Positions 1 to 12,285 of a DNA stretch of 29,501 nucleotides are shown piece by piece. Source of the stretch: a virus; IMG/VR virus record IMGVR_UViG_3300007519_000053, positions 1-29,501 of that record; one strand, written 5' to 3'. The first letter of the stretch is position 1. Each line of letters starts with the position of its first letter. The notes under the pieces were generated by a model that saw only the letters and a program-made list of their open reading frames with translations, had not been told where the DNA came from and made no database searches. A program made the position numbers and the translations under genes.

Positions 1-1
1 C

Positions 2-181
2 GTCGCCTACGACGCCGCCCGCGCCGCCCGCGACGCCGCCAGCGACGCCGCCAGCGACGCCGCGGGCGCCGCCCACTACGCCCGCGCCATCGCCATCGCC
101 GCACGCGACGCTCGAAGTCGATCCTACTCCGCCTCCCTCGTCGCGTTCAAGGCGCGCGACGCGATCCGTGACCTGGCTTAG
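2..181 (+). CDS. Ala/Arg/Asp-rich helical protein, 3' end only
   Basis: An open frame enters from the left edge and stops at TAG 179-181, so the start lies outside the window. The 59 visible residues are very rich in Ala, Asp and Arg, with recurring AARDA and ASDAA units, which predicts a long helix or coiled coil. The composition closely matches the next gene (265-489), which has the same AARDAR units, so the two are probably tandem paralogues. Function is not recognised. Small genes at the left end of a phage arm are often early host-interaction genes, but that is inference from position only. Confidence 0.6.
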   Translation, partial: VAYDAARAARDAASDAASDAAGAAHYARAIAIAARDARSRSYSASLVAFKARDAIRDLA

Positions 182-189
182 CCGCGCGG

Positions 190-264
190 CCTGATCCGTT
201 GCGGCCTGCGCCTCTCGCAATGAGGCGCAGCGCGGAACTGATCCACTATCTAGGAGCACCGACT
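190..264 (+). promoter_or_regulatory. Structured leader, copy 1
   Basis: This leader of about 75 nt is closely repeated at 1584-1656. Its core is a 9-bp stem, CTGCGCCTC with GAGGCGCAG around a 7-nt loop, with partial outer pairing between TCCG/GCG and CGCGGA. It ends in CGGAACTGATCCACTA and an AGGAG ribosome site just before the ATG at 265. The hairpin sits about 20 nt before the ribosome site, so it could be a processing site, a stabilising leader or a terminator for the upstream gene. Confidence 0.6.
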
Positions 265-489
265 ATGACCGATCTTGAAGCTGCTTTCGACGCCGCGCGA
301 GACGCGCACACCTCAGCGTTTTATGCCGCGCGCGACGCCCGCGATGCGGTCATGGCGGCGGACGCTCGCGCCATAGATGCACGAGAGGCCCACCGCTTGG
401 CCGCCGTCCGCCTCACCGATGTAAGCATCGCTTACAGCCTCGCAATCAAAGCCGTCCGCGAGGAACGCGACGCCCGCGATAGCGATTGA
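265..489 (+). CDS. Small Ala/Arg/Asp-rich helical protein
   Basis: A 74-residue protein built of charged, Ala-rich helix with repeated AARDA, ARDAR and ADARAID units, likely a coiled coil. I start it at ATG 265 and not at the upstream in-frame ATG 199, because AGGAG lies at 252-256 at good spacing and because 199 falls inside the hairpin leader shared with 1584-1656. It resembles the truncated gene at 2-181, which suggests a tandem duplication. No known domain is recognised. Confidence 0.6.
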   Translation: MTDLEAAFDAARDAHTSAFYAARDARDAVMAADARAIDAREAHRLAAVRLTDVSIAYSLAIKAVREERDARDSD

Positions 490-495
490 TACATA

Positions 496-513
496 ATCCC
501 CCCTAGAGGGTAA
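496..513. repeat. 18-bp dyad, copy 1 (intergenic)
   Basis: ATCCCCC-CTAG-AGGGTAA. It lies between the stop at 487-489 and the ATG at 529, ending 15 bp before that start and just before the CAGGAG ribosome site. This leader is nearly identical to that at 966-998. Confidence 0.85.
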
Positions 514-528
514 TCAGGAGAAGAGACC

Positions 529-966
529 ATGACTGGCAGTGTAAGCAAGGGCGAGCTCAACCGGGCAATGACCAAGCTCAACCGCCGCACGGGCAGGCCG
601 GTATCGCCTGCCAAGGGCTACGAGCCTTGCGTGGGCCACCTGTTGCTTGATAATTCAAATTCAGGGATGCGTATGTGGCAGATTATGAATGTTCAGGGGT
701 TCGAGGTCGTTGCGCTAGACGGCCCGCACCGCACGAGCCGCGAAATGTTCGACCTTATCAGCGCTATGATTACTGCGCTAGACCTAGCTGGCTCCCCTCC
801 GAAGGAGCACGTGCTTGATGATAGCACGTCTCAGGTCGAGAGGGTCGCTCGCGCCCTGCACGGCAGGGCTAACAAGAGCCAGAAAAGTGCGGCGTGGGGT
901 ACTGCGTCGCCCGCCTCAAGAGACGCTTGGCGCAAGCTGGCCGTTGTCGCAATAGCAGCCCACTAA
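529..966 (+). CDS. Unknown phage protein, 145 residues
   Basis: The start is supported by CAGGAG at 515-520. The middle of the protein (about residues 40-90) looks like a compact alpha/beta domain: a hydrophobic strand, then MWQIMNVQGFEVVALDG, then a helix rich in Met, Leu and Ile. The C-terminal third is basic and probably less ordered. No catalytic motif is seen. It sits in the run of small unknown genes before the helicase. The region coding for SPPKEH (792-809) looks like an eroded copy of the 18-bp dyad. Function is not recognised. Confidence 0.6.
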   Translation: MTGSVSKGELNRAMTKLNRRTGRPVSPAKGYEPCVGHLLLDNSNSGMRMWQIMNVQGFEVVALDGPHRTSREMFDLISAMITALDLAGSPPKEHVLDDSTSQVERVARALHGRANKSQKSAAWGTASPASRDAWRKLAVVAIAAH

Positions 967-983
967 TCCCCCCTATAGGGTAA
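966..983. repeat. 18-bp dyad, copy 2 (intergenic)
   Basis: ATCCCCC-CTAT-AGGGTAA. Its first base is the last A of the TAA stop at 964-966, and it ends 15 bp before the ATG at 999. Confidence 0.85.
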
Positions 984-998
984 TCAGGAGAAGAGACC

Positions 999-1568
999 AT
1001 GACCAGCACCAACACTCGCCAGACCGTCGAGGTTTACGGGGACATCACTGCATTTGTCCTGGGAGCGACGCGCCACCTGCCCGCCGTTGTCGCCCGTTCG
1101 ACCGGCGACCTGCCTTACACGAAGCGATTCCTTGATAGGTACATAGTGCAAGCTGTCGGCCTTGTGCTCAAGGAGGCAATCAACCCTGCGTACAGCGCGG
1201 CGCTGTGGTTCGCCAGAGAAGCGGGGTTCACGACCGGCATGGAGAACACCTCTGACCTTCTGTTGGACGCCACCGACGAGGACAATAACGACCTGCTCAG
1301 GTTCTCGGTGCAGTCTGTCCTGCTTAGCATGGTGTCGCTGCAAATGCAGCGGGGCGCGCTTATTCTGGAGGACGACCTGCAAACCCTGCTCCGGCCTCTG
1401 CCCCTTTGGATTCCGTTCCACACCAGAGTTACTGACGCTGCGATAATCCAAGCGTCGCGCATGGCTTTTAATATTACCGGCGAGCTGGCGGACGTTGTGG
1501 TGATTAGCGCCGGGCTGCATAACAGCGTCGTCGAGATGCACAACGTGGAGGCTACTTCCCCTCTGTAG
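999..1568 (+). CDS. Unknown phage protein, 189 residues
   Basis: The start follows CAGGAG at the same spacing as in the gene before it, and the two leaders are near-identical. The protein is mostly helical, with hydrophobic stretches around residues 45-65 and 95-115 but no clear membrane segment. An acidic patch (DATDEDNND) lies near residue 90. The last residues, SPL and the TAG stop, are encoded within an 18-bp dyad, so the repeat ends the gene. No family is recognised. It belongs to the small-gene cluster upstream of the helicase. Confidence 0.6.
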   Translation: MTSTNTRQTVEVYGDITAFVLGATRHLPAVVARSTGDLPYTKRFLDRYIVQAVGLVLKEAINPAYSAALWFAREAGFTTGMENTSDLLLDATDEDNNDLLRFSVQSVLLSMVSLQMQRGALILEDDLQTLLRPLPLWIPFHTRVTDAAIIQASRMAFNITGELADVVVISAGLHNSVVEMHNVEATSPL

Positions 1569-1573
1569 GGGAA
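1556..1573. repeat. 18-bp dyad, copy 3 (over a stop codon)
   Basis: TTCCCCT-CTGT-AGGGGAA, a fully symmetric copy. The TAG stop of the 999-1568 gene (1566-1568) lies in its spacer and right arm. Confidence 0.9.
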
Positions 1574-1583
1574 ACACGTCGAA

Positions 1584-1656
1584 GCCTGATCCGCTCCGGC
1601 CTGCGTCTCTAGCTGAGGCGCAGAGCGGAACTGATCCACTACTAAGGAGCTGCACC
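1584..1656 (+). promoter_or_regulatory. Structured leader, copy 2
   Basis: Second copy of the leader at 190-264. The stem is CTGCGTCTC with GAGGCGCAG. The C-to-T change relative to copy 1 is tolerated as a G-U pair and the loop is shorter (TAGCT), while outer pairing CCGCTC/GAGCGG is better than in copy 1. A changed sequence with a kept stem suggests that the RNA fold matters. It ends in AAGGAG before ATG 1657. Confidence 0.6.
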
Positions 1657-1791
1657 ATGCCTGATAGCACATGGAACGAAGACTTCGCTGACGCGAGGCA
1701 GGATGGGCGACGCCAGCCGACGGTTACACCGACTCAAACCTTCCTCTTGGCGAGCCTGACTTTTGGCGAGTTTGACCAGACAGACCACTAA
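1657..1791 (+). CDS. Small acidic/polar protein, 44 residues
   Basis: A short gene with a good ribosome site (AAGGAG at 1644-1649) and a leader shared with the gene at 265. It begins MPDSTWNEDFADARQDG and ends at TAA 1789-1791, whose last base begins an 18-bp dyad. No domain is recognised. Its reality rests on the conserved leader, the ribosome site and the close fit between its neighbours. Without it there would be an unexplained gap of 250 bp in an otherwise packed region. Confidence 0.5.
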   Translation: MPDSTWNEDFADARQDGRRQPTVTPTQTFLLASLTFGEFDQTDH

Positions 1792-1808
1792 TACCCTATA
1801 GAGGGGAA
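1791..1808. repeat. 18-bp dyad, copy 4 (intergenic)
   Basis: ATACCCT-ATAG-AGGGGAA. Its first base is the last A of the TAA stop at 1789-1791. It ends 10 bp before ATG 1819, and the following AAGGA provides the ribosome site. Confidence 0.8.
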
Positions 1809-1818
1809 AGGATAGACC

Positions 1819-2217
1819 ATGGATTACTTCTCTATCATAGACGGGGCAAAGGCGGTCATAGTGACCGCTGGCGTCTACCGCCAAGTGGATGTGTTTGAGC
1901 GCGCGGGCTACCTGTATGCTGCGCGGGGCAATGGCTTTGTTCGTCTGCTGGCAAGCGGCAAGACTTCGGACCCGCGTACCTTGTGGCGCGAGTGCGACGT
2001 TGACGGAGGGCACTTGGTCCAGTCTGGGTCTTACATTGTGCGTGGTGGCGTAGTGCCGGACGCCCTGCCCGGTGTAGCTTCCCCTGTGGAGGGGATAACG
2101 AAGGACGTGGGAAGGTTCGCCCATGAGCAGCGGCGGCCGGAGGCGGTCGCTAAGGTGACGGAGGCCAGAAACAAGAGACGGGCCGACGCGAAGTCAGCAA
2201 GAGAGGGAATGAAATGA
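1819..2217 (+). CDS. Unknown small phage protein, 132 residues
   Basis: The first 75 residues look like a small beta-rich domain (VDVFERAGYLYAARGNGFVR, then LLASGKTSDPRTLWREC). The C-terminal 45 residues are a highly charged, Lys/Arg-rich helix. The two parts are joined by a linker that contains SPVEG, encoded by an 18-bp dyad. The stop overlaps the next start as ATGA (2214-2217), so translation is probably coupled. No known function is recognised. Confidence 0.6.
   Translation: MDYFSIIDGAKAVIVTAGVYRQVDVFERAGYLYAARGNGFVRLLASGKTSDPRTLWRECDVDGGHLVQSGSYIVRGGVVPDALPGVASPVEGITKDVGRFAHEQRRPEAVAKVTEARNKRRADAKSAREGMK
2079..2096. repeat. 18-bp dyad, copy 5 (in gene)
   Basis: TTCCCCT-GTGG-AGGGGAT, inside the 1819-2217 gene, read as S-P-V-E-G in a linker. 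Confidence 0.85.
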
Positions 2218-2414
2218 CTCCGACAAAGAAGACGGGCGGAGCTTATATGCCCTGCGTTGACAGGTACGATCTGACCGCAGCGCAAACAAAGCAGGCCATG
2301 CGCAACTTTATGTTGACTCTGGGCTCGGACTTGTGCGGCGAAATTACCGTCAGCTTCATGCGCGACGGGAACGGGAAAGCCTTCGCCATCGTCATTAACA
2401 GGGAGATCGTGTGA
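2214..2414 (+). CDS. Unknown small phage protein, 66 residues
   Basis: A 66-residue protein that starts in an ATGA overlap with the preceding gene and ends in a GTGTGA overlap with the next, which suggests a tightly coupled set 1819-4326. It has a predicted helix (LTAAQTKQAMRNFMLTLG) followed by two strands (GEITVSFMRDG, KAFAIVINREIV). No motif is recognised. Confidence 0.55.
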   Translation: MTPTKKTGGAYMPCVDRYDLTAAQTKQAMRNFMLTLGSDLCGEITVSFMRDGNGKAFAIVINREIV

Positions 2415-2986
2415 CTATGACCAATAGAATAGACGCTGCTGTAAATTCGCTCTACGTGAAAAACCATCGAGCGGAGTGGTCGAGGATGGGCTTTGCCCCC
2501 ATGACTGTCTCGGTGCATGATAGCGACAAAGAGCACGCCAAGGCGCTGATCGAGCTGCTTCGCTTTGAGCGGCTTATGCGTAGCATCGAGGCTGGCGATG
2601 CGGAGGTTATTGACTTTGTGGCTGGCCGCAACATGCAGCGCCTTCCCTCCAACGAGGTGCTGCGGCTGCGCCGCGAGGCTGTCCTTTATGCCATGCTGCC
2701 CAAGCCCGCAGAAAATAAGATAGTGGCCCTGCTTGATGTGGCTGCTACCTTAATGACCGACTGCATGGGCTGGCGCAGGATGATGCACGACGACCCGGCC
2801 AACGATACGGTTCGGGCAAAGTGCGTGTGCGCCAATAACTTAGCGGTCGCGCACGCCTTGCTCGCGTCTGCGCTCATGTCTGTGCATTGTGTGACGCCCG
2901 GCAAGGCACAATCCCCCGCAGAGGGTAACGCTCCCGAGCCGATGCAGGCGGTGGTGGCCAATCCGAAGAGGTTCGGCAAGCAATGA
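2411..2986 (+). CDS. Unknown helical phage protein, 191 residues
   Basis: I use the GTG start at 2411, five bases after AGGGAG at 2400-2405 and overlapping the previous stop. An ATG six bases later is an alternative. The protein is largely helical, with charged helices around residues 35-95 and a hydrophobic helix around 98-112 (ENKIVALLDVAATLMTDC). The C-terminal tail is low in order and contains SPAEGN, encoded by an 18-bp dyad. The stop overlaps the helicase start as ATGA (2983-2986), so the product may work with the helicase, but that is inference. Confidence 0.55.
   Translation: MTMTNRIDAAVNSLYVKNHRAEWSRMGFAPMTVSVHDSDKEHAKALIELLRFERLMRSIEAGDAEVIDFVAGRNMQRLPSNEVLRLRREAVLYAMLPKPAENKIVALLDVAATLMTDCMGWRRMMHDDPANDTVRAKCVCANNLAVAHALLASALMSVHCVTPGKAQSPAEGNAPEPMQAVVANPKRFGKQ
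2911..2928. repeat. 18-bp dyad, copy 6 (in gene)
   Basis: ATCCCCC-GCAG-AGGGTAA, in the 3' part of the 2411-2986 gene, read as S-P-A-E-G-N in a tail region. Confidence 0.85.
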
Positions 2987-4326
2987 TCCGCCCAACGCTC
3001 ATGCGCATCCAAGACGAAGATGCAGATAGGTTGATACAGGGGGACATCCCCAACCATAGCCTAGCGGGGACAGGTAAAACCCTGTCCACGCTAGAGGCTG
3101 TGAAGCGTGCGGGCCATGACCGGGGACTTGTTCTGGGGCCGCTAATTTCGATGGAGATGTGGAAGGAGCAGACAGAAATGTGGCTGGGCGCTAAGGCGCA
3201 AATCCTGCGCTCGGGCGCGGATAAGATCAAGCCCGACACTGATTTTGTTTTGTGTCCGTACGACCTTGCCGCAGGTAGTCAACGGGCCAGACTGCGCGCG
3301 CACTTTAACAAGGGCGCGCTGATACTGGACGAGGCGCATTATCTGCGCGGCTATGGCTCCAAGCGGTCGCAGGCTGTGTTCGGTGCAGAGTACGATGGGG
3401 ACAGGGGGTTCACGGAGCTGTTCGACCATGTGTGGTCTCTGACAGGAAACCCGGTGTGGTCGCATAGCAACGATATGTGGACGCAGCTAGTCGCCTTGTT
3501 CCCTAAAGTGTTCGCGCAGTACGGGGTGACTGAGTACCAGAATTTTGTGCGTAGCTTCTGCGTTATTAAGTGGATAAGTGTAGCTAAAAACCTCCCTAAA
3601 AGCCCAAAAATTGTGGCGAGCACGTCCTCTAGGCTGCTAAACCGCATAGTGTACCATGACATAGGCGCAATTAGAAGAGAGGAAGCGCTAGACCTACCAA
3701 TGCTGACGTTTGCCCCTCTGACTGTTAAGCCCGCCCGGCTTCCGAAGCACTATGCCGATATGCTATCAAAGATGACTGACCGCGAAATAGAGGTTGCCCT
3801 AAAATTTAGCCCGGCGGGGCCGAAAGAAGAGCTTGCCGGGCTGCAAGGCGTTTGGCAAGCGCTGGCTCTGTCGGTGGTGGGCCCGGTTGTGGAGCACATA
3901 GAGAACATATCCCGCAATAGCCCGGTGCTGGTGGGCGTGTATCATACCGCCGTAGGCGATGCGTACGTTGCAGAGCTTGAGAAGCGCGGGCTGTCTGTCG
4001 GCGTGGTGCGGGGTGGCGTGACGGTGAAGAAGCGCGAAGAGATAAGGAGTGCTTTCAACAACGGAAACCTTGACGTTATCGTAGGCCAGATGACTGCGAT
4101 GGGGGTTAGCTGGAACCTACAGGCTATGTGTCACAGGGTAGTGATAGCGCAGGACTGCCCGAGCGCATCCACCATAGAGCAGTTTTACAAGCGGGTGCAG
4201 CGCACTGGTCAGACGCAGCCTGTCATCGTGGATACAGTGATGCCAACGCATCCTCTTAGCCTGGCCATCGCTCGCATGAGGCGTGCCAAAGGCGCAGAAC
4301 AGCGGATCGTACGTACCGGAGAATAA
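2983..4326 (+). CDS. SNF2/DEAH-type superfamily 2 helicase
   Basis: A 447-residue ATP-dependent DNA translocase or helicase. Motif I is SLAGTGKT (Lys32), motif II is LILDEAH (Asp116, Glu117, His119), and motif III is SLTGNP near 152-157, where most SNF2 proteins have TGTP. A second RecA-like lobe starts near 310 (PVLVGVYHTA), with GQMTAMGVSWNLQ as motif V and QFYKRVQRTGQ as motif VI. This layout matches the single-chain SNF2-like helicases common in phage replication regions, which are thought to remodel DNA at forks or during recombination. The two lobes fill the chain with no accessory domain. It begins in an ATGA overlap with its neighbour and is followed at once by an 18-bp dyad. Confidence 0.88.
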   Translation: MIRPTLMRIQDEDADRLIQGDIPNHSLAGTGKTLSTLEAVKRAGHDRGLVLGPLISMEMWKEQTEMWLGAKAQILRSGADKIKPDTDFVLCPYDLAAGSQRARLRAHFNKGALILDEAHYLRGYGSKRSQAVFGAEYDGDRGFTELFDHVWSLTGNPVWSHSNDMWTQLVALFPKVFAQYGVTEYQNFVRSFCVIKWISVAKNLPKSPKIVASTSSRLLNRIVYHDIGAIRREEALDLPMLTFAPLTVKPARLPKHYADMLSKMTDREIEVALKFSPAGPKEELAGLQGVWQALALSVVGPVVEHIENISRNSPVLVGVYHTAVGDAYVAELEKRGLSVGVVRGGVTVKKREEIRSAFNNGNLDVIVGQMTAMGVSWNLQAMCHRVVIAQDCPSASTIEQFYKRVQRTGQTQPVIVDTVMPTHPLSLAIARMRRAKGAEQRIVRTGE

Positions 4327-4343
4327 TCCCCCTTGCAGGGTAA
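4326..4343. repeat. 18-bp dyad, copy 7 (intergenic)
   Basis: ATCCCCC-TTGC-AGGGTAA. It begins on the last A of the helicase TAA stop and ends 15 bp before ATG 4359, with CAGGAG between. Confidence 0.85.
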
Positions 4344-4358
4344 ACAGGAGAACGAGAT

Positions 4359-4673
4359 ATGTCTTGCCTCACTACGTCGGTAGCGCAAATGCGTTACGAA
4401 GCGGTAACTGAAAAGCATTTGACTGCTATGCTTAACGAACTTGGCGCGGTGGGCATCTGCCCCGAGTGCGCTTTGGATGGCTTGTTGGTCAACATGCTGC
4501 TTACCCAGTTTGCTGAGTGCGGCCAGCCTCTCACTGCCATTTTGGCGCGCCAGTATGCGCGTGCGATAGGCGATAAGGCTCTTTTGTGCGCGCTGGCAGC
4601 GGTGCGTGGCGACGTTCAGCACATCGAAGTGTGGGTGGGTATGCCCGATCCGACGAAGAAGTGCGCGCCATGA
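4359..4673 (+). CDS. Unknown small phage protein, 104 residues
   Basis: The start is supported by CAGGAG at 4345-4350. The protein is helical and Leu/Ala-rich. Four of its five cysteines are at CPEC (about residue 34-37), AEC (near 54) and LLC (near 77), but they do not form an obvious zinc knuckle pair. Its stop overlaps the start of the small membrane protein as ATGA (4670-4673). No known family is recognised. Confidence 0.55.
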   Translation: MSCLTTSVAQMRYEAVTEKHLTAMLNELGAVGICPECALDGLLVNMLLTQFAECGQPLTAILARQYARAIGDKALLCALAAVRGDVQHIEVWVGMPDPTKKCAP

Positions 4674-4804
4674 CGCGGCACCGCTCCCCCAGCCGAGGGA
4701 CGCTCCGGCGTCGCCGTGGTAGTGTTGTCGCCTTGGCGGTGCTGTCAATGTTGACAGTGTTAGCAGCGCTGGTTGGCGTTGCTGTGGCGATGATTTTGTA
4801 TTGA
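4670..4804 (+). CDS. Small single-span membrane protein, 44 residues
   Basis: The short frame opens at ATG 4670, overlapping the previous stop as ATGA. It has a strongly basic N-terminus (RHRSPSRGTLRRRRG) followed by about 27 hydrophobic residues (SVVALAVLSMLTVLAALVGV and on to the end at LY). This predicts one membrane helix with the basic end in the cytoplasm. Possible roles are a small holin-like protein or a membrane effector. No lysin lies beside it, so the lysis role is unproven. Two alternative in-frame starts upstream (the furthest at 4586) would make a longer, more basic protein but lack a ribosome site. The SPSRG codons may be an eroded 18-bp dyad. Confidence 0.6.
   Translation: MTRHRSPSRGTLRRRRGSVVALAVLSMLTVLAALVGVAVAMILY
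4742..4757. promoter_or_regulatory. Perfect palindrome upstream of the replication promoter
   Basis: CTGTCAA-TG-TTGACAG is a perfect 16-bp palindrome inside the small membrane protein gene, about 57 bp upstream of the -35 box at 4814. It could be an upstream operator, or a coincidence of the codons. Confidence 0.3.
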
Positions 4805-4813
4805 TGGCAACAC

Positions 4814-4842
4814 TTGACAACGCCTTGCGTTCTTGCTATAGT
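4814..4842 (+). promoter_or_regulatory. Strong sigma70-type promoter for the replication genes
   Basis: TTGACA (4814-4819), a 17-bp spacer, then TATAGT (4837-4842), preceded by TGC as an extended -10. The -35 box is a perfect match and the -10 differs from the consensus by one base. Transcription would start near 4849-4850, about 55 nt before the nuclease start at 4905. It is the best promoter I see in the window and would drive the rightward replication block. Confidence 0.85.
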
Positions 4843-4853
4843 AAGGCGTTGTC
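4816..4853. promoter_or_regulatory. 11-bp inverted repeat framing the promoter (operator-like)
   Basis: GACAACGCCTT (4816-4826) and its exact complement AAGGCGTTGTC (4843-4853) flank a 16-bp centre. The left arm overlaps the -35 box and the right arm starts right after the -10 box, near the start site. This is a typical position for a repressor operator. As RNA, only the right arm would be transcribed, so a terminator role is unlikely. Confidence 0.65.
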
Positions 4854-4904
4854 ATCCAGCGGTTGCCCCGCCGGTAATCACTGCCAACCAATGGGGACTA
4901 TCAA

Positions 4905-5783
4905 ATGTTCGACGCTAAAACTCTGGCGCAACCGACCAACGTGCTGCGTAGGGCACTGGACGCCAACATCCGCAAAGAGACGCGCATGTGGCCCGTGTTC
5001 GGCGGCGGGCACTTGATGCGCAAGTCCTATGTCTCATCGTCTGAAGTTGGTAAGTGTCTGCGTATGGCGTTCTTCAACAAGCGCTACGATGACTTGGGCT
5101 GCTTCATCGAGGCTGACGACTTGGAGCGTTCCCCTCTGGAGGGGAATATGGACACCCTTCCCAAAGGGTTTATCACGGGGGCAATGCCCGGTAACTGGGG
5201 GTACGCAGAGCGGGGCAACGCTCAAGAAGAATGGCTGGTAACTAAGCTACGGGGTGGCGTGCCGGGGACCAGCTTCATGTTTCTCGGCTCCAACCAAGTT
5301 AGCTTTGTGGACGGCAACAGAAGCGGCACGCCAGACGGTCTGGCGGTACGGCCCAAGGGGGACTTCACCCTTGAGTTTAAGAGCTATGATCCGCGCAAGA
5401 AAATGTCTGGTATGCCTGTCCCCGCTCACATAGCGCAGGTGATCCAGAACACCGACCTCATGCAGATCGCCATGCCAGCGCGAGACCTCGTTGGCGGGCT
5501 GCTGACCTACACAGACGCGTCTGACTTCAATAAGGGTCCAGAGTTTTGGATTGACACAAAAACAGCCGCTGCGAAAGAGTACCTTGCAGACCTCAAGGTA
5601 CGCGCCGATACCGTTTTTACCGCCTCGGCCCCGGACGAAGTGCCAGCCGAAGGCATTCACAACGGAGACTGCCAGTACTGCCCGCACACTGCGCGATGCT
5701 CAGCGGCGGGTACCATGATTAAACAGGAGAAAGAAAACCGTGACCGAGCAATCGACATCGCCCGCACCATCTTCTCTCGATAA
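4905..5783 (+). CDS. Cas4-like PD-(D/E)XK exonuclease with probable Fe-S cluster
   Basis: A 292-residue single-strand or recombination nuclease of the Cas4/RecB type. The nuclease core is visible as RGNAQEEW (103-110), GTPDG with Asp144, LEFK with Glu157 and Lys159, and AQVIQ with Gln178. One cysteine near the N-terminus (Cys51, in SSSEVGKCLR) and three at the C-terminus (CQYCPHTARC: 256, 259, 265) match the four-cysteine 4Fe-4S cluster of Cas4 and AddB proteins. No CRISPR array or other cas gene is near, and such lone phage Cas4-like nucleases usually act in replication and recombination. It is the first gene after the 4814 promoter. SPLEGN near residue 76-81 comes from an 18-bp dyad. Its 3' end overlaps the next gene by 44 bases. 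Confidence 0.85.
   Translation: MFDAKTLAQPTNVLRRALDANIRKETRMWPVFGGGHLMRKSYVSSSEVGKCLRMAFFNKRYDDLGCFIEADDLERSPLEGNMDTLPKGFITGAMPGNWGYAERGNAQEEWLVTKLRGGVPGTSFMFLGSNQVSFVDGNRSGTPDGLAVRPKGDFTLEFKSYDPRKKMSGMPVPAHIAQVIQNTDLMQIAMPARDLVGGLLTYTDASDFNKGPEFWIDTKTAAAKEYLADLKVRADTVFTASAPDEVPAEGIHNGDCQYCPHTARCSAAGTMIKQEKENRDRAIDIARTIFSR
5129..5146. repeat. 18-bp dyad, copy 8 (in gene)
   Basis: TTCCCCT-CTGG-AGGGGAA, fully symmetric arms, inside the Cas4-like gene, read as S-P-L-E-G-N between the first cysteine and the nuclease core. Confidence 0.9.
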
Positions 5784-6072
5784 CGTCAAGCCCTATCTGG
5801 CCGAGCTGTTGGAGCTACGCGCCGCCAAGGCAAAGATTGACGCCCGCCTCAAGGAGCTCGACCCCATAGTGCGCCCGGCGATCATCGGCGCGGGCTCTTT
5901 GCAGCACGCGGGCTACATCTTCAAGTGCTCAATGAAGAAGGGCGCGGTCAGCCTCGACAAAGCGCTCATCACTGCGTACCTGGAGACGCATGGCAAGAAG
6001 TACGAAGACTTCACCAAGACCGGAGCGCCGTCGTCAGTGATGACGGTGATCGAAATTCCCAAGGAAGCGTGA
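5740..6072 (+). CDS. Small protein coupled to the nuclease, 110 residues
   Basis: It starts at GTG 5740, with AGGAGA at 5724-5729, and overlaps the nuclease gene by 44 bases. Residues 18-45 form a charged helix (LAELLELRAAKAKIDARLKE) likely to make a coiled coil. Then comes a small beta region (GSLQHAGYIFKCSMKKGAVS) and a C-terminal helix and strand. The overlap suggests a partner or regulator of the nuclease. The family is not recognised. Confidence 0.6.
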   Translation: MTEQSTSPAPSSLDNVKPYLAELLELRAAKAKIDARLKELDPIVRPAIIGAGSLQHAGYIFKCSMKKGAVSLDKALITAYLETHGKKYEDFTKTGAPSSVMTVIEIPKEA

Positions 6073-6080
6073 CGATCATG

Positions 6081-6132
6081 GTCCCCAGCCGGTAGCTCTG
6101 GGGGGTAACTAGGGCGCTTCGTGTCTCCCCAG
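6081..6132 (+). promoter_or_regulatory. Competing hairpins in the leader of the 6235 gene
   Basis: CTGGGG at 6098-6103 can pair with CCCCAG at 6083-6088 or with CCCCAG at 6127-6132, so two mutually exclusive stems are possible. This is the layout of an attenuator or other leader switch. No anti-SD element or ligand-binding core is recognised. Confidence 0.35.
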
Positions 6133-6157
6133 CGCGACGGTCCACGAGCCATAAATC

Positions 6158-6175
6158 TTCCCCTCTACGGGGGAA
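6158..6175. repeat. 18-bp dyad, copy 9 (intergenic)
   Basis: TTCCCCT-CTAC-GGGGGAA, in the 162-bp gap between 6072 and 6235. Unlike other intergenic copies it is 59 bp from the next start. Confidence 0.85.
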
Positions 6176-6184
6176 CCTACCGGA

Positions 6185-6208
6185 AGCTAACACCGGCACC
6201 TGTTAGCT
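6185..6208 (+). promoter_or_regulatory. Hairpin just before the 6235 gene
   Basis: AGCTAAC (6185-6191) pairs exactly with GTTAGCT (6202-6208) around a 10-nt loop. It ends ten bases before the GAAGG ribosome site (6218-6222), so it may shape access to that site. With 6081-6132 and the dyad at 6158 it fills most of this gap. Confidence 0.4.
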
Positions 6209-6234
6209 ACAGACAAACGAAGGCTAAATGACAA

Positions 6235-7107
6235 ATGGCAAATGAAATCACTAGCCCGTTCGGCAGCGCGGTCAAGCCCCTCGACACCAAGGCGATGGCC
6301 GCACGAGCGAAGGAGAGCGCCAACGAGGCGCCGCAGCGCGGAGGCGAGAGCGAGTTTCTTAACTTCTCTGGTAAGAAAGGCGTGTACAGCGCCTTTCAGG
6401 ACGGCAAGACCGTCACTCCCGACGAGCCTTTCTTGCTGAACGTCGCGTCGTTCATGGACGGCTGGATCGCGTGGAAGGGAGGCAAGCCGGTCGCCAAGCT
6501 CTGGTACAACATCTTCACTGAGCAGCGCATCCCTGAGCCCGACCATGACCTTCATGGCCCGTACAACACCGCCAAAGGCGAGGGTTGGCAGTCACAGCGC
6601 GGTTGGCAGGCGAAGTCCTTGGACAATGACCGTCAGATCGAATTTTCGAATAGCTCTGTGTCTGGCAAAGCAGAGATGGGGGACATGCTCAAGGAAGTCT
6701 CCCGGCGCATGGCATCGGGCGAGCCGTGCTGGCCGGTGTTTGTTCACGACCTCGAACAGTTTGAGGCGCAGGGCTTCAAGAACTACAAGCCCATCTTTGC
6801 AGTGATCGGCTGGCTGGATGACGCAGCGCTGCCGGAGCTGTCGGGCGACGGAGGCTACGACCTTGACGAGCTGTTTGCTGATAGTGTCAAGCGTTTCCGT
6901 ACGGGTGCGGTCACTGGCGCACCGGAGGCCGGCGAGCCCTCGGAGAGCGAGAACCCCGGCGACGGGCTTGACGATGACGACACCGAAGACGCAGAGGTTG
7001 TGCCGGACAAGCCTGAGCCCCGTCGCCGTCGCACCAGCGAGGCCACAGTTCCCACGGCGAAAGCCGAGGCAGCAGCTACCACTTCACGCCGCCGTAGTGC
7101 GACGTAA
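6235..7107 (+). CDS. Replication-region protein with acidic linker and basic tail
   Basis: A 290-residue protein. I choose ATG 6235, which follows GAAGG at 6218-6222; the ATG at 6228 stops after a few codons. Residues 40-225 look like one globular domain rich in aromatic and beta segments (FLLNVASFMDGWIAWKGGKP, then AKLWYNIFTEQ). It is followed by an acidic stretch (about 232-258, with DDDDTEDAE), a basic RRRR patch and a Ser/Thr/Ala tail. Its place between nuclease and polymerase, together with the single domain and acidic tract, makes a single-strand DNA-binding protein a reasonable guess, but no family signature is recognised. It has its own long, structured leader. Confidence 0.6.
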   Translation: MANEITSPFGSAVKPLDTKAMAARAKESANEAPQRGGESEFLNFSGKKGVYSAFQDGKTVTPDEPFLLNVASFMDGWIAWKGGKPVAKLWYNIFTEQRIPEPDHDLHGPYNTAKGEGWQSQRGWQAKSLDNDRQIEFSNSSVSGKAEMGDMLKEVSRRMASGEPCWPVFVHDLEQFEAQGFKNYKPIFAVIGWLDDAALPELSGDGGYDLDELFADSVKRFRTGAVTGAPEAGEPSESENPGDGLDDDDTEDAEVVPDKPEPRRRRTSEATVPTAKAEAAATTSRRRSAT

Positions 7108-7109
7108 AG

Positions 7110-7158
7110 TGGTTGGAGCGCAGGGCTCGCAATCCTGTCTCGACCCTGCCTAGCAGGT
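7110..7158 (+). other. tRNA-like fragment (uncertain)
   Basis: The stretch GTGGTTGGAGCGC, then CAGGG-CTCGCAA-TCCTG, then CTCGACCCTGC reads like the 3' part of a D arm, an anticodon arm (5-bp stem, 7-nt loop with T33 and anticodon CGC) and part of a T arm. The left D-stem strand, the left T-stem strand and the acceptor stem are missing, so it is not a working tRNA. It may be a remnant, or chance hairpins. Confidence 0.25.
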
Positions 7159-7166
7159 GTTTGGGG

Positions 7167-7200
7167 TCGCCGCCGCAGTTTCCCCAGACTGCGGCGGCGA
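7167..7200 (+). terminator. Strong hairpin, terminator-like
   Basis: A perfect 13-bp stem, TCGCCGCCGCAGT with ACTGCGGCGGCGA, around the 8-nt loop TTCCCCAG. It lies 60 bp after the stop at 7107 and before the dyad at 7215. Only a weak T-rich stretch (CTACTTTA) follows, so termination could be partial, or the stem could protect or process the RNA between the 6235 gene and the polymerase genes. Confidence 0.6.
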
Positions 7201-7214
7201 TGCTACTTTAGGGA

Positions 7215-7232
7215 TTACCCTCTACAGGGGAA
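7215..7232. repeat. 18-bp dyad, copy 10 (intergenic)
   Basis: TTACCCT-CTAC-AGGGGAA, 11 bp before ATG 7244. The following CAGGTG serves as ribosome site. Confidence 0.85.
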
Positions 7233-7243
7233 ACAGGTGCTAA

Positions 7244-7501
7244 ATGACTAAGCAAACCTCATACAACGCCGCCGTGTCAGCTATTGACGCTCTTGACTGC
7301 GCGATTGACGCCCTCAGAAACGCGAGGCACCTAGTAAATCATAGTGATCTGGTTGCCCTAGAGCCGGTAGCTCCTATCATCGACAAAGCCTACAACATCG
7401 CCAACAACGCCAATGTTACGCTGCGGGGCGCTCTGCGTGATTACCTAAACGAGATCGCTACACAAGCAGAAGCCGTGCAGCAAGGGGATGATGAGGCATG
7501 A
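7244..7501 (+). CDS. Small helical protein upstream of DNA polymerase
   Basis: An 85-residue, fully helical, Ala/Asn-rich protein (NAAVSAIDALDCAIDALRNA, later KAYNIANNANVTLRGALRDY). Its stop overlaps the DNA polymerase start as ATGA (7498-7501), so the two are translationally coupled. It could be a polymerase accessory factor, but no family is recognised. The leader holds the 7167 hairpin and a dyad. Confidence 0.6.
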   Translation: MTKQTSYNAAVSAIDALDCAIDALRNARHLVNHSDLVALEPVAPIIDKAYNIANNANVTLRGALRDYLNEIATQAEAVQQGDDEA

Positions 7502-9378
7502 TTACCCAAGCTGCGTCCTACGAGAACACAGAGGCGCTGCTGTCTAAGTCTCGCGCCTCCTGTGTAATGGCTACCAGAGAGCAGGCCATGGCATGGCTGG
7601 CTACCATGGTAGACTTCGCCTTGGACTTCGAGACCACATCGCTGGACCCTCGGGTCGGGCGGGTGCGGCTCACTTCTATCTGCAATGACGACCATCACTT
7701 TATCATTGACCACGATATGTGTGGGCCGCTGTCCGACTACATTCCCCTGCTGAGGGGAAAGCCTACTGGTGCCAAGGTCGTATGGGTGTACAACTCAAAG
7801 TTTGAGACAACGTGGCTCGATCACAACGACCCTCTGTCCTTTGATAGCAGCAAGTGGATCAGGACGCGAGACGTTGACTTTCTAGCCAAGGCGCACATTG
7901 GCGGGCACCCGTCTAGCCTTGCCAAGATGGTCAAGCGCGACCTCAAGGCGATCATAGACAAGCAAGAGCAGAATAGTAACTGGGGCGATCCGTACTTGTC
8001 TCCCTCGCAGCTGGACTACGCAGGTTTCGACAGCTACTTGACGTGGCAGCTCAAGCAGCACTGGTTCGCCAAGCTGGAGCATAGCCAGATCGACGCCGCA
8101 GAGTTTGTCTTTGACTATGCCGTGCGCGGTACTACCGAGTGCGAGCGCACAGGCATAGAGCTGGACGCTGAGTACCACTCTGGCACGGTTAGCTTGTGGG
8201 AGATGAAGCACGCCACGTTCTTGCGGTACATACGCAAACTTACCCCCGAGGGGGTAATAAAGAACCTCAATAGCGACATGCAGATCGGCAAGTATCTTGC
8301 CACCATCCTACCGCAAGAAGTCATAGACCACTGGCCGCGCACTGAGAAGAAGAAGCAGATGCAGTTCGAGGGCAAGTACCTTCGGTCTATATCCAGAAAC
8401 TTCGGGTACCCGTTCTCTCGATGGTTGGCTGCGCTGGCGGGCTACAAGTATTACAGCAAGTACCTGTCCACCTACGGCGACACTCTGCTGAACAAGCAAG
8501 CGCTGAGCGGCGTAGTGACTGCGCGCTATAACATCGCGCAGGCCGCTACAGGGCGCTATTCGTCCGCTAATGTCAACAAGCAGAACATACCACGCAAGCA
8601 GGTGGTGCGCAAAGCCTTCTATGTCTCGGACCCGACACTAGAGCTCTTGTGCCTCGCGGACTACAAAGGCGTAGAGATTAGGGCGCTGGGAGAAATCTCT
8701 GGCGACAAGCAGCTGTTGTATGACGCCACGTACTCAGACGTTCACGCGGCGTCTTGCGCGGCGATTTACGACTACGCTTTGGACTGGGTGCTACAAGTGC
8801 TGAACAGCATGGGCAAGGGAGAGCTGGGAGCCAAGTACATGCTGTTGAAAGAGCAGCGCTCTAAGGCTAAGGGGTTTACCTTCCAGCTTATTTACGGTGC
8901 GGCGGCTGCCGCCCTGTCTGACGTGTTGAAGTGCTCTGTCTCCGAAGCAGAGAGCGCTCTGGACGCTTGGGTTGCTCGCTACCCGAAGGCGTACAACTAC
9001 CGTAACACTATCTATTCGCATATGCAAGTTACCCACGGCTTCATACCTATTGCCGATGGCCGCTCGGTTTACGTGCATCGTGACGACAGGACTATGCCCA
9101 TCGCCGCTAACTACGGCGTGCAAGGCATCGCCGCTTCTGTGATGTATCGGGCAGTCGGTAGGACGCACCGCCTGTTTGTGGAGAGGGACATACCAGCCAA
9201 GCTGGCTGCTACTGTACACGATGAGCTCATATCGCGCTCAGAAACATCCGCCGCAGAAGAGGCGATGGCCGCACAGATCGAGGGCATGACGCAAGCGTGG
9301 CTTGACGTGTTCCCAGGCTCCGACACTGCCAACCTGATTGACTGGAAGATCGGGACTACGTGGGCAGATAAACCGTAA
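7498..9378 (+). CDS. Family A DNA polymerase with 3'-5' exonuclease
   Basis: A 626-residue replicative DNA polymerase. The exonuclease domain has LDFETT (Asp43, Glu45), VYNSKFE (Asn99, Glu103) and DYAGFD (Tyr174, Asp178). The usual Asp of Exo II is Glu103 here. The polymerase domain shows motif A LADYKGVEIRALGE (Asp388), motif B RSKAKGFTFQLIYG (Arg454, Lys458, Phe462, Tyr466) and motif C VHDE (574-576). Motif B positions match E. coli Pol I 754, 758, 762 and 766 with a constant offset of 300, so residue 762 is Phe, as in Pol I itself. There is no 5' nuclease domain, as is normal for phage PolA. Two dyads lie inside it, in different frames (IPLLRGK near 82-88, TPEGVI near 249-254), and a third follows the stop. 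Confidence 0.95.
   Translation: MITQAASYENTEALLSKSRASCVMATREQAMAWLATMVDFALDFETTSLDPRVGRVRLTSICNDDHHFIIDHDMCGPLSDYIPLLRGKPTGAKVVWVYNSKFETTWLDHNDPLSFDSSKWIRTRDVDFLAKAHIGGHPSSLAKMVKRDLKAIIDKQEQNSNWGDPYLSPSQLDYAGFDSYLTWQLKQHWFAKLEHSQIDAAEFVFDYAVRGTTECERTGIELDAEYHSGTVSLWEMKHATFLRYIRKLTPEGVIKNLNSDMQIGKYLATILPQEVIDHWPRTEKKKQMQFEGKYLRSISRNFGYPFSRWLAALAGYKYYSKYLSTYGDTLLNKQALSGVVTARYNIAQAATGRYSSANVNKQNIPRKQVVRKAFYVSDPTLELLCLADYKGVEIRALGEISGDKQLLYDATYSDVHAASCAAIYDYALDWVLQVLNSMGKGELGAKYMLLKEQRSKAKGFTFQLIYGAAAAALSDVLKCSVSEAESALDAWVARYPKAYNYRNTIYSHMQVTHGFIPIADGRSVYVHRDDRTMPIAANYGVQGIAASVMYRAVGRTHRLFVERDIPAKLAATVHDELISRSETSAAEEAMAAQIEGMTQAWLDVFPGSDTANLIDWKIGTTWADKP
7742..7759. repeat. 18-bp dyad, copy 11 (in gene)
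   Basis: TTCCCCT-GCTG-AGGGGAA, fully symmetric arms, in the polymerase exonuclease domain, read as I-P-L-L-R-G-K, a different frame from the S-P-x-E-G copies. Confidence 0.9.
8240..8257. repeat. 18-bp dyad, copy 12 (in gene)
   Basis: TTACCCC-CGAG-GGGGTAA, the longest symmetric copy (8-bp arms around GA), in the polymerase gene between the two catalytic domains, read as T-P-E-G-V-I. Confidence 0.9.
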
Positions 9379-9395
9379 TCCCCTCCAGAGGGTAA
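9378..9395. repeat. 18-bp dyad, copy 13 (intergenic)
   Basis: ATCCCCT-CCAG-AGGGTAA. It begins on the last A of the polymerase TAA stop and ends 14 bp before ATG 9410. Confidence 0.85.
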
Positions 9396-9409
9396 ACAGG
9401 AGACTTACT

Positions 9410-9817
9410 ATGACTGGCTTTGATAAAGACCAACCGTCGTGGTTCGCTGCCGACCGGAAGGAGGTAGCTACAAGTGGCTACGCCATGCTTAACGCGGAGC
9501 AAGGGTTCTGCGACCTACTGACCAACGCTCAACGTCTGGTGGACGAGGCTTACGACACTATTCACGGGACAAACGGAACATCAACGTCCAGTGAAAAGGT
9601 AGAGCAGGCAAAAGTGGTTGTTGATACCATTACTCTGCTGTTTAGCATGTGCAGCGCTCACCATCTGGCTTATGCAGAACGTCTTGAGAGCCTGCGCAAA
9701 ATAACTGAGGCCAGACAACAGCTTTATGTTGATGAGAAGGTTGCTCGCGCAAAATATGAAGAGCTCATGTCTCAGCCTGTGCCAATGCCAGCCGGTCGGT
9801 TTCAGCGTGAGCAATGA
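9410..9817 (+). CDS. Unknown helical protein, 135 residues
   Basis: I start at ATG 9410, after CAGGAG at 9397-9402; the frame is open further upstream only inside the polymerase gene. The protein is almost all helix, with a charged coiled-coil-like C-terminal half (YAERLESLRKITEARQQLYV and onward). It lies between polymerase and RusA-like resolvase. No family is recognised. Confidence 0.6.
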   Translation: MTGFDKDQPSWFAADRKEVATSGYAMLNAEQGFCDLLTNAQRLVDEAYDTIHGTNGTSTSSEKVEQAKVVVDTITLLFSMCSAHHLAYAERLESLRKITEARQQLYVDEKVARAKYEELMSQPVPMPAGRFQREQ

Positions 9818-9839
9818 GCTTGGCGGGCGTGTATTCGGT

Positions 9840-10352
9840 ATGACTGTGCTCTCGCGCAGTATTCCAAAAGGGCGCGCCCGCGTCTCAAAGTCCGGGCATA
9901 TGTACACCCCAGAGCGAACGCGCTTGTTTGAGAAGTACATAGCGAACCTAGCAGCCATGTCTCTGGTCTATAGCATGGCGGAGTATCCCCTCAGCATACG
10001 GGTCGTTGCCGAACAGGTGCCCCCCAAGAGCTGGCCTAAATGGCATAAAGCAGCGGCGGCTGCTGGCCTAGTGTTCCCCTCTGGGGGGGATACTGACAAC
10101 CGTTTGAAGGCAATAAAAGATGCGCTTAACACCATCGTTTACGCCGACGACAAGCAGATACCGGACATTGCCATGTCTGTGCGCTATGGGGTGCGGGACG
10201 TTATCCGCATAGATTTGTACCGGGTCGGCGTCACGCTTGAAGAAGCCAAGGCGCTATACGCGGCGGGGAGGCTTAGCTATGACGAAGTTAATCGACGCGG
10301 CGTTGTCTTGGGCGGGCATGGGAGTGCCGGTGTTCCCATGCGGGACGGATAA
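9840..10352 (+). CDS. RusA-like Holliday junction resolvase
   Basis: A 170-residue protein with the RusA pattern: an N-terminal SIPKGRARVSKSGHMYTPER, then GDTDNRLKAIKDALNTIVYADDKQI at residues 83-107. The acidic residues Asp84, Asp86, Asp94 and Asp103/104, with Lys90, fit the metal-binding site of RusA enzymes, which cut branched DNA made by replication and recombination before packaging. I use ATG 9840; GTG 9807 is an alternative, and neither has a good ribosome site. Its end overlaps the primase gene by 74 bases. FPSGGD just before the catalytic DTDN comes from an 18-bp dyad. Confidence 0.85.
   Translation: MTVLSRSIPKGRARVSKSGHMYTPERTRLFEKYIANLAAMSLVYSMAEYPLSIRVVAEQVPPKSWPKWHKAAAAAGLVFPSGGDTDNRLKAIKDALNTIVYADDKQIPDIAMSVRYGVRDVIRIDLYRVGVTLEEAKALYAAGRLSYDEVNRRGVVLGGHGSAGVPMRDG
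10074..10091. repeat. 18-bp dyad, copy 14 (in gene)
   Basis: TTCCCCT-CTGG-GGGGGAT, in the resolvase gene, read as F-P-S-G-G-D in a third frame, right beside the catalytic DTDN codons. Confidence 0.85.
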
Positions 10353-12285
10353 GGCTCCGCTGGTAGCCACGGGGTTTCACGCTGCGTCCACCGACCCGGA
10401 TGCTGTACGCTCGTTGTTCGCTGGTCACGGTGAAAACATATTCATAGGCGGCGCTATGGGCGGTGACGCTGGCCTGTTCGCCTGTGATTTCGATACCTAC
10501 AAGTCGGGGGCGGCTGGTGCGTCGGCTGCTGCTTTCATGGCAGAGCTGGAAGCGCTAGATATGCTGCCGCCTACGCAGCGCCACCGGACAAAGAGCGGCG
10601 GGCTGCACCTCATCTACGAGAGCCACAACGGCTATCCCAACTGCAAGCCCGTGCCGGGTGTGGAAATCAAGGGGGAGGGCGGGTACATCATCCTGCCCCC
10701 CAGCGCTGGTTATACCATAGAGGACAATGGCGGCTTCTCTGTGGCCCCCAAGGCTTTGGTAGAGCGGCTTATCCACCAGAAGAAGCAGCACACAGCCAAG
10801 ACTGTCAGTCAGCATGAAGACGCGATCATGCGCGCGGTTGACTTTCACGATAGCGTAGCGTCGATGGTCGCAAAGCTGTTCAGACAAGGACAGCCCGCCA
10901 GCGCCGTTATGGCGCGCGTGCTCGCTGCGCTGGGCTCGTCTGTCGCAGCGTCGCCGCAGCACCCGCGACACGCTAGGTGGCTTGCTATCATGCAAGACGA
11001 CAGCGGCGAGCTGGCGCGCATGGTTGGGTCAGGACGGGACAAGTTTGACCTTAACGCTGCGACGCAAGATGCGGCTGACAGTGTGGACCCTGCCATCGCC
11101 GAACGCCTAAAGAGGGCCGCTGCCGCCGCTGGCTTTTACGCCAGCAGCGACACTGCTTATTCCCCTGCGGGGGGTATTGCTCCGCCGCCCAAAGATTACG
11201 GGGACGCTTGGCCGTTTGCAGACGATGGGTACTTTGCCCACGAAGACATAGACGTTGCTAACCAGAAGTTTACCATCTACCCGGTCTACTGCGAGAACGA
11301 AAGCGTTGTCATCGCAGCGGACCCGAAGGCAGGCAAGACCGCGATCAGCCTCAAGCTGGCGTTTGCTCTTGCTTTAGGCAAGTCGATGGGGCCGTTCAGA
11401 ATTACCGAGCCGCGCGGGGTTTTGTACTTCTCGCTGGAGGGTACGAGAGCGGTTAAGCTGCGCCTAGAAGCAGAGAAGCGCTTTCGAAGAGACGCTGGCG
11501 AGACGTTGCCGGATAAAATACCGTTCTTCGTCATAGAGAAGTCTGCTAATTTTATCACGCAGCAAGACGAGCTGGTCGGCAAGATAGTGGCTGCGGACAA
11601 GTGGTACACCAAGGACACGGGGCAACAGCTCGGGCTTATCGTAGTGGACACGTTGACTAAAGCCATGCCCGGCGCAGACCAGAATAGCGTGGACGATACG
11701 TCAAAGCTGTTTGAGCTAACGTCTAAGCTGCGCGACCATGGGGTCACTGCAACGGTGGTCTACATCCACCATACAGGAAAGGATGGCAGGACAAGAGGCT
11801 CATCTAACATCGAGGCGGAAGTCGATGTCGTTCTGAAAGTACACAAGCAGGAAGACGGCTCATCGCTGCTGTCTATCTTCATGGCCCGCAGCATTGACGA
11901 CGTAGGCATGTACAGGTTCGAGCTGCAAAGCTACGATCTGGGAGAGACCACGCAAGGTATCAAGCAGACAGCGCCCGTCGCTGTGCTGACAGAGACCAAG
12001 GAGGCGCAGGGTGAGGTCACAGAGGACGCTAGGCGTGCCCACGTCATCCGCCCGTGGCTCAAGATGCTGGTTAGCGCTGGTCCCGGCAGGTATGACATGG
12101 GCAAGCTGCTAGTGCTTGCTAAGACTGCTCGCCTAATGGCTGGCCGACAGCGGCGTGCTGACATGCTCAAAGTGCTGGATACGATCTTTAACAGGGAGAC
12201 TTCGGTGGTCCACGCTGGGCATGTTATGTCTGTGGAAACGGACGGCGACAGCTACGTAGCCGTCACCGTCCAGTCGATAGGTTGA
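10279..12285 (+). CDS. Primase-polymerase fused to RecA-fold helicase
   Basis: A 668-residue two-domain replication protein. Residues 1-160 match the prim-pol (bifunctional primase/polymerase) domain: GVPVFP, DKAPL, ACDFD (Asp70, Asp72), SGGLH (His110) and GGYIILPPS. Residues 335-530 are a RepA/AAA_25-type ATPase: Walker A ADPKAGKTA (348-356), Walker B LGLIVVDTL (Asp457), then IHHTGKDGRTRGSSN (496-510). It would prime and unwind DNA at the fork with the polymerase encoded upstream. I start at ATG 10279, after GGGGAGG, inside the resolvase gene; 10237 has no ribosome site. SPAGGI in the linker between the domains (near 295-300) is encoded by a dyad. It is the last + strand gene. Confidence 0.9.
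   Translation: MTKLIDAALSWAGMGVPVFPCGTDKAPLVATGFHAASTDPDAVRSLFAGHGENIFIGGAMGGDAGLFACDFDTYKSGAAGASAAAFMAELEALDMLPPTQRHRTKSGGLHLIYESHNGYPNCKPVPGVEIKGEGGYIILPPSAGYTIEDNGGFSVAPKALVERLIHQKKQHTAKTVSQHEDAIMRAVDFHDSVASMVAKLFRQGQPASAVMARVLAALGSSVAASPQHPRHARWLAIMQDDSGELARMVGSGRDKFDLNAATQDAADSVDPAIAERLKRAAAAAGFYASSDTAYSPAGGIAPPPKDYGDAWPFADDGYFAHEDIDVANQKFTIYPVYCENESVVIAADPKAGKTAISLKLAFALALGKSMGPFRITEPRGVLYFSLEGTRAVKLRLEAEKRFRRDAGETLPDKIPFFVIEKSANFITQQDELVGKIVAADKWYTKDTGQQLGLIVVDTLTKAMPGADQNSVDDTSKLFELTSKLRDHGVTATVVYIHHTGKDGRTRGSSNIEAEVDVVLKVHKQEDGSSLLSIFMARSIDDVGMYRFELQSYDLGETTQGIKQTAPVAVLTETKEAQGEVTEDARRAHVIRPWLKMLVSAGPGRYDMGKLLVLAKTARLMAGRQRRADMLKVLDTIFNRETSVVHAGHVMSVETDGDSYVAVTVQSIG
11160..11177. repeat. 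18-bp dyad, copy 15 (in gene)
   Basis: TTCCCCT-GCGG-GGGGTAT, in the primase-helicase gene, read as S-P-A-G-G-I in the linker between the two domains. Confidence 0.85.

Follow-up and report, generated by a model that had tools for sequence, protein, structure and literature searches.

Among described phages, the closest counterparts of the locus analysed here are found in the LUZ24-like podoviruses. The annotated sigma-70 promoters of LUZ24 and tf include internal ones on the early strand that are built like the promoter reported below (CTTGACA-17-TATAAT with TG), and one of them stands in a comparable place, at approximately 4.8 kb between the early and middle genes. The promoter positions of tf match LUZ24 promoters identified by experiment, and temporal regulation in LUZ24-like phages awaits identification of their transcription factors (PMC3517423). 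In the temperate relative phiM5, a P22 c2-like repressor gene is found in the early region next to a TTGTGTATAATACACAA dyad that lies over a -10 box. Two other systems are geometric precedents for widely spaced arms, and are cited here as such and not to claim membership. According to the passage of PMC4016012 that cites Streaker & Beckett (1998), a BirA dimer binds a 40-bp operator; this operator, bioO of E. coli, has two distant arms over a promoter, is bound by a winged-helix dimer and equals in overall length the element described here. AbiEi binds inverted repeats in its own promoter as two cooperating monomers, and AbiEi-type operators have 23-bp arms that are 3 or 13 bp apart (PMC7319586).

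The DNA analysed here, referred to as the window, is the whole 29.5-kb stretch of a viral contig whose end lies within the portal gene or close to it. In its portal, major head and scaffold proteins and in a 505-aa structural protein, the phage is related to LUZ24/phiM5-type podoviruses, of which many are phages of alphaproteobacteria. A tail module and convergent replication and structural blocks, which also characterize this group, were found as well, and the order helicase, exonuclease, polymerase A, primase is that of phiM5. Judged by its sequence, the phage is distantly related to this group. Since the contig is without the terminase and flanking genes, it is incomplete. The features of the locus and of the genes around it are the following, all on the forward strand.

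2983-4326, Snf2-type helicase gene, upstream of the promoter
4359-4673, 104-aa frame between the helicase gene and the 44-codon frame
4670-4804, 44-codon frame directly upstream of the promoter, with one predicted hydrophobic helix; holds the palindrome at 4742
4742-4757, palindrome CTGTCAATGTTGACAG (CTGTCAA-TG-TTGACAG), coding, not beyond chance
4814-4819, -35 element TTGACA, 6/6 match (sequence and promoter scan)
4815-4826, left arm of the inverted repeat, TGACAACGCCTT, overlapping the -35 element (repeat search)
4834-4842, extended -10 element, with TG at 4834-4835 and TATAGT at 4837-4842, 5/6 match (promoter scan)
4843-4854, right arm of the inverted repeat, AAGGCGTTGTCA, beginning directly after the -10 element and containing the predicted start (repeat search)
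4848-4904, predicted 5' untranslated leader of approximately 55 nt (inference and folding)
4905-5783, first downstream gene, Cas4/RecE-like exonuclease (weak PHROG matches)
5740-6072, frame with a weak RecE-like match
6235-7107, nucleotidyltransferase-like gene
7498-9378, family A DNA polymerase
9726-10352, RusA resolvase
10237-12285, Prim-Pol/AAA helicase

The near-perfect sigma70 promoter with extended -10 described in an earlier note on this DNA was confirmed by our promoter scan. The sequence of 4809-4860 is acactTTGACAacgccttgcgttctTGcTATAGTaaggcgttgtcatccagc. TTGACA at 4814 is followed by a 17-nt spacer and by TATAGT up to 4842, with TG before the -10 element, which amounts to 11 of 12 matches. 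The sequence elements of a sigma-70 promoter are present, namely TTGACA, a -10 element of the TATAAT type, a spacer of 16-18 nt and the optional TG. This promoter ranks first among the eight candidates in 1-15000, the others scoring 9/12 each, in a number explained by chance. Among 200 dinucleotide shuffles of the window, one contained a promoter with an extended -10 and 11/12 or more matches; in the window itself, the promoter at 4814-4842 is the sole one of such quality. A candidate on the minus strand, TTGTCA-16-CAAAAT, reached only 9/12 and was rejected as chance level. The promoter sits in a 100-bp gap between genes, with its -35 element beginning 10 nt past a stop codon. From the spacing, with sigma-70 starts expected 5-9 nt past the -10, transcription is predicted to start at approximately 4848-4851, within the right arm; the predicted leader (4848-4904) shows no unusual folding by itself (z -0.23). 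The assignment of 4814-4842 as a sigma-70-type promoter is well supported and very likely correct, with its activity being predicted from sequence.

The promoter had also been said to precede the replication genes, which holds for part of the block. The host housekeeping RNA polymerase (sigma-70 type) would start a message at approximately 4848-4851 that encodes the exonuclease and then the polymerase, resolvase and primase-helicase. The exonuclease, the product of 4905-5783, is 25-29% identical to alphaproteobacterial phage exonucleases, and the rest of the downstream block spans 5740-12285 on the forward strand. The helicase gene (2983-4326), however, lies upstream of the promoter on the same strand. 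As the promoter serves most of the replication block without the helicase, only a part of the block would be gated. The structural genes are oriented oppositely, from 29430 to 12286.

The promoter is framed by an inverted repeat. Its arms, previously given as 11 bp, are one base longer each (12 bp); they are 100% complementary, 16 nt apart and 40 bp in overall length. The placement that had been noted, with one arm over the -35 box and its complement just after the -10 box, was borne out at 4815-4826 and 4843-4854. Perfect repeats with arms of at least 12 bp and a spacer of at most 40 occur three times in the window (4815-4854, 7167-7200 and 16552-16583), compared with 1 in 30 shuffles, and a free-standing 12-bp repeat in 29.5 kb is borderline. 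The promoter could be real and the repeat a functionless chance match, as such a repeat turns up in about 1 in 30 window shuffles, only one example is at hand and no relative of sufficient distance to reveal selection was found. Against this stands the position of the repeat. When the 80-bp neighbourhood was shuffled everywhere but in the promoter boxes, arms of at least 11 bp appeared in a fraction of 0.0001, and arms of at least 12 bp in none, of 20,000 trials, which gives a conditional probability below 1e-4 for a chance repeat over the promoter. This test was applied after the dyad had already been noticed. A 12-bp repeat lying exactly over the promoter by chance is very unlikely, and we regard the reading with a functionless repeat as rather unlikely.

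An operator is expected to be a dyad overlapping promoter elements, and here the 12-bp arms lie over the -35 element and the start. This arrangement suggests that the repeat at 4815-4854 is likely an operator. We consider it probable that a promoter for the host polymerase, which serves the exonuclease-polymerase-primase genes, is combined at this locus with an operator that is present once and would be covered by a repressor. The 40-bp repeat would then be bound by a dimeric repressor, or by two cooperating monomers, one on each arm, covering the -35, the spacer, the -10 and the start. RNA polymerase would be excluded by the repressor bound over 4815-4854. The repressor may be encoded by the phage, in the roughly 10 kb that are absent from the contig, or may derive from the host. 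The suggestion in the earlier note of an operator gating the replication block is in line with the placement of the dyad over the -35, the -10 and the start, whereas its host regulator gained no support, and no repressor was recognised in the window. Searches with Pfam, PHROGs and NCBIfam identified no gene for a DNA-binding repressor in the window, from which the terminase side is missing. The predicted structure of the 104-aa upstream protein, considered as a possible regulator, is too poor for a judgement on this role (mean pLDDT 58). The repeat is present in single copy, with no second site in the genome and no arm repeats beside the site; this may count against an operator, as many phage repressors use several sites.

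Comparison with the precedents indicates how far the likeness extends. The arms of bioO are of the TTGTAAACC type. Here, the arms are TGACAACGCCTT, replication genes are located downstream and biotin genes are absent, so that the likeness to BirA-type operators is geometric only. Similarly, no abiE-like genes accompany the repeat. The phiM5 dyad is short and lies between divergent genes beside the c2-like gene, whereas the repeat described here has no repressor gene beside it and the genes run one way. None of the 17 annotated promoters of LUZ24 and tf is framed by a repeat whose arms lie on the -35 and past the -10, unlike the promoter at 4814. Across six related phage genomes and three viral contigs, we found no promoter of at least 10/12 with a framing repeat longer than 7 bp. 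The absence of the frame from the 17 LUZ24 and tf promoters makes it particular to this lineage and no family trait, a point against the operator reading. The site could represent an unusual phage operator, with 12-bp arms 28 bp apart from centre to centre over the -35 and the start, bound by an undescribed type of repressor and gating only the exonuclease-polymerase-primase part alongside a separate genome-wide system of 18-bp dyads in this phage; we hold this to be decidedly doubtful.

The element at 4814 is the likely point at which an uncultured lineage of podoviruses controls its DNA replication. If it is an operator, it provides a defined 40-bp bait for a transcription factor of a LUZ24-like phage, and may point to a state of repression, either temperate or delayed. 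At present, it is best described as a strong promoter of the ordinary kind that likely carries an operator.

The 80 bases of the locus at 4804-4883 are identical in IMGVR_UViG_3300037325_000089, which is the sole relative with the locus and is approximately 95% identical overall. The reading in the earlier note would be refuted by relatives with the promoter but without the repeat; the one relative available for this comparison has both elements unchanged and is too close to show selection. At this distance, approximately two changes are expected per 40 bp, and longer unchanged runs are found elsewhere, so the 80 bases are not exceptional. No relatives of the flanking genes more distant than this one were found in IMG/VR, and there was no DNA match in phage records. 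Sampling of one class (385 genomes) and of one order (296 genomes) likewise yielded no distant relatives, an empty result that shows little. Among viral contigs, the exact 12-bp arms occur in the near relative only. With 9-bp arms at a spacing of 18-22, 20 viral stretches matched; in about 85,000 genomes, the pattern GACAACGCC-N18-22-GGCGTTGTC matched at least 120 stretches, and many of the matches resemble terminator hairpins. Among the viral and genome matches listed, only the window and its relative have the promoter within the repeat, with a -10 properly placed after the left arm. A host regulator that uses the same repeat upstream of host genes, for which the earlier note proposed a search, was not supported by this genome scan, as judged from the matches listed.

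The repeat might instead act in RNA, the promoter being real. A hairpin in read-through RNA could serve for processing or stabilising, or hide the region from translation, between parts of the operon. The read-through RNA of 4805-4904 has a predicted folding energy of -37.2 kcal/mol (z -3.2, a value equalled by none of 200 shuffles) and contains a 14-bp stem, and the upstream genes on the same strand end 10 nt ahead of the -35. A plain terminator is contradicted by the lack of a U run past the stem and of a terminator call at the site; the post-stem sequence, TCCAGCGG, is not the run of T that follows the G+C-rich hairpin of an intrinsic terminator, and the scan made no such call. The read-through hairpin had no Rfam match. 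A role in RNA would make the coincidence of both arms with the promoter boxes accidental, and we judge it unlikely. Alternatively, the whole element could be a chance promoter-like match within a structural or replication-origin dyad, without a transcription start. The site precedes replication genes, and origins commonly hold dyads. Nevertheless, boxes of 11/12 with TG are improbable in themselves, the arms are not repeated beside the site and the cumulative skew does not turn at 4.8 kb; we judge this reading very improbable.

Three other candidates were rejected for this locus. The nick site of phage tf, TACTRTGMC, occurs once, elsewhere in the window (9406), and TACTATAGC at the -10 (minus strand) matches it at only 7/9 positions. 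An N4-type hairpin promoter (AACGC-CTT-GCGTT, 5-bp hairpin) is not indicated, as the window's genes include no giant virion RNA polymerase. The LexA-type site of alphaproteobacteria is GTTC-N7-GTTC, of which only half matches were found.

The perfect palindrome reported at 4742, CTGTCAA-TG-TTGACAG, is present. It lies inside the 44-codon frame (4670-4804), and the TTGACA within it has no promoter context. Palindromes with 7-bp arms and spacers of 0-4 nt number 24 in the window, against a shuffle mean of 11.9 (range 5-21); because it is one of 24, this palindrome is not remarkable. It is no part of the promoter-repeat element.

That the framing repeat differs from the 18-bp dyad of the same window was confirmed, as none of the 29-30 dyad copies lies over the promoter at 4814. 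The 18-bp dyad, TTCCCC-N6-GGGGAA, is found in 29-30 copies in the window with at most two mismatches, compared with 0.9 in shuffles, or approximately one per kb. It occurs in both gene blocks, within and between genes (e.g. at 1556, 5129, 6158, 7742, 19055, 24088, 25137 and 27159). It is also found in the near relative (20 copies in L003, 20 in L006 and 10 in the 10.3-kb L005), and is absent from LUZ24, tf, phiM5 and other relatives. Dyads of a similar kind, 17 bp long and in 34 copies, are known from Cluster O mycobacteriophages (PMC4351075). The 18-bp dyad looks more unusual than the promoter-repeat element at 4814.

Several minus-strand promoters of LUZ24 (30312, 44882 and 45080) and tf (31670, 45521 and 45783) have a palindromic initially transcribed sequence just past the -10, namely ACCTATAGG, GGTTCTATAGG and similar. 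The 4.8-kb promoters of LUZ24 (4834) and tf (4763) have AACCTTAAGG in common. These shared sequences might represent a conserved regulatory element of LUZ24-like phages. Within the window, the perfect 13-bp inverted repeat TCGCCGCCGCAGT/ACTGCGGCGGCGA at 7167-7200 separates the nucleotidyltransferase-like gene from the frame that follows; it shows no T run behind it and is possibly an RNA hairpin. Early-gene modules with the common leader AATCCCCCCTAGAGGGTAATCAGGAGAAGAGACCATG are repeated (189-531 and 1579-1650, compared with 1-355 of the related contig L003). Their number differs between the window and L003, and both contigs appear to break there.
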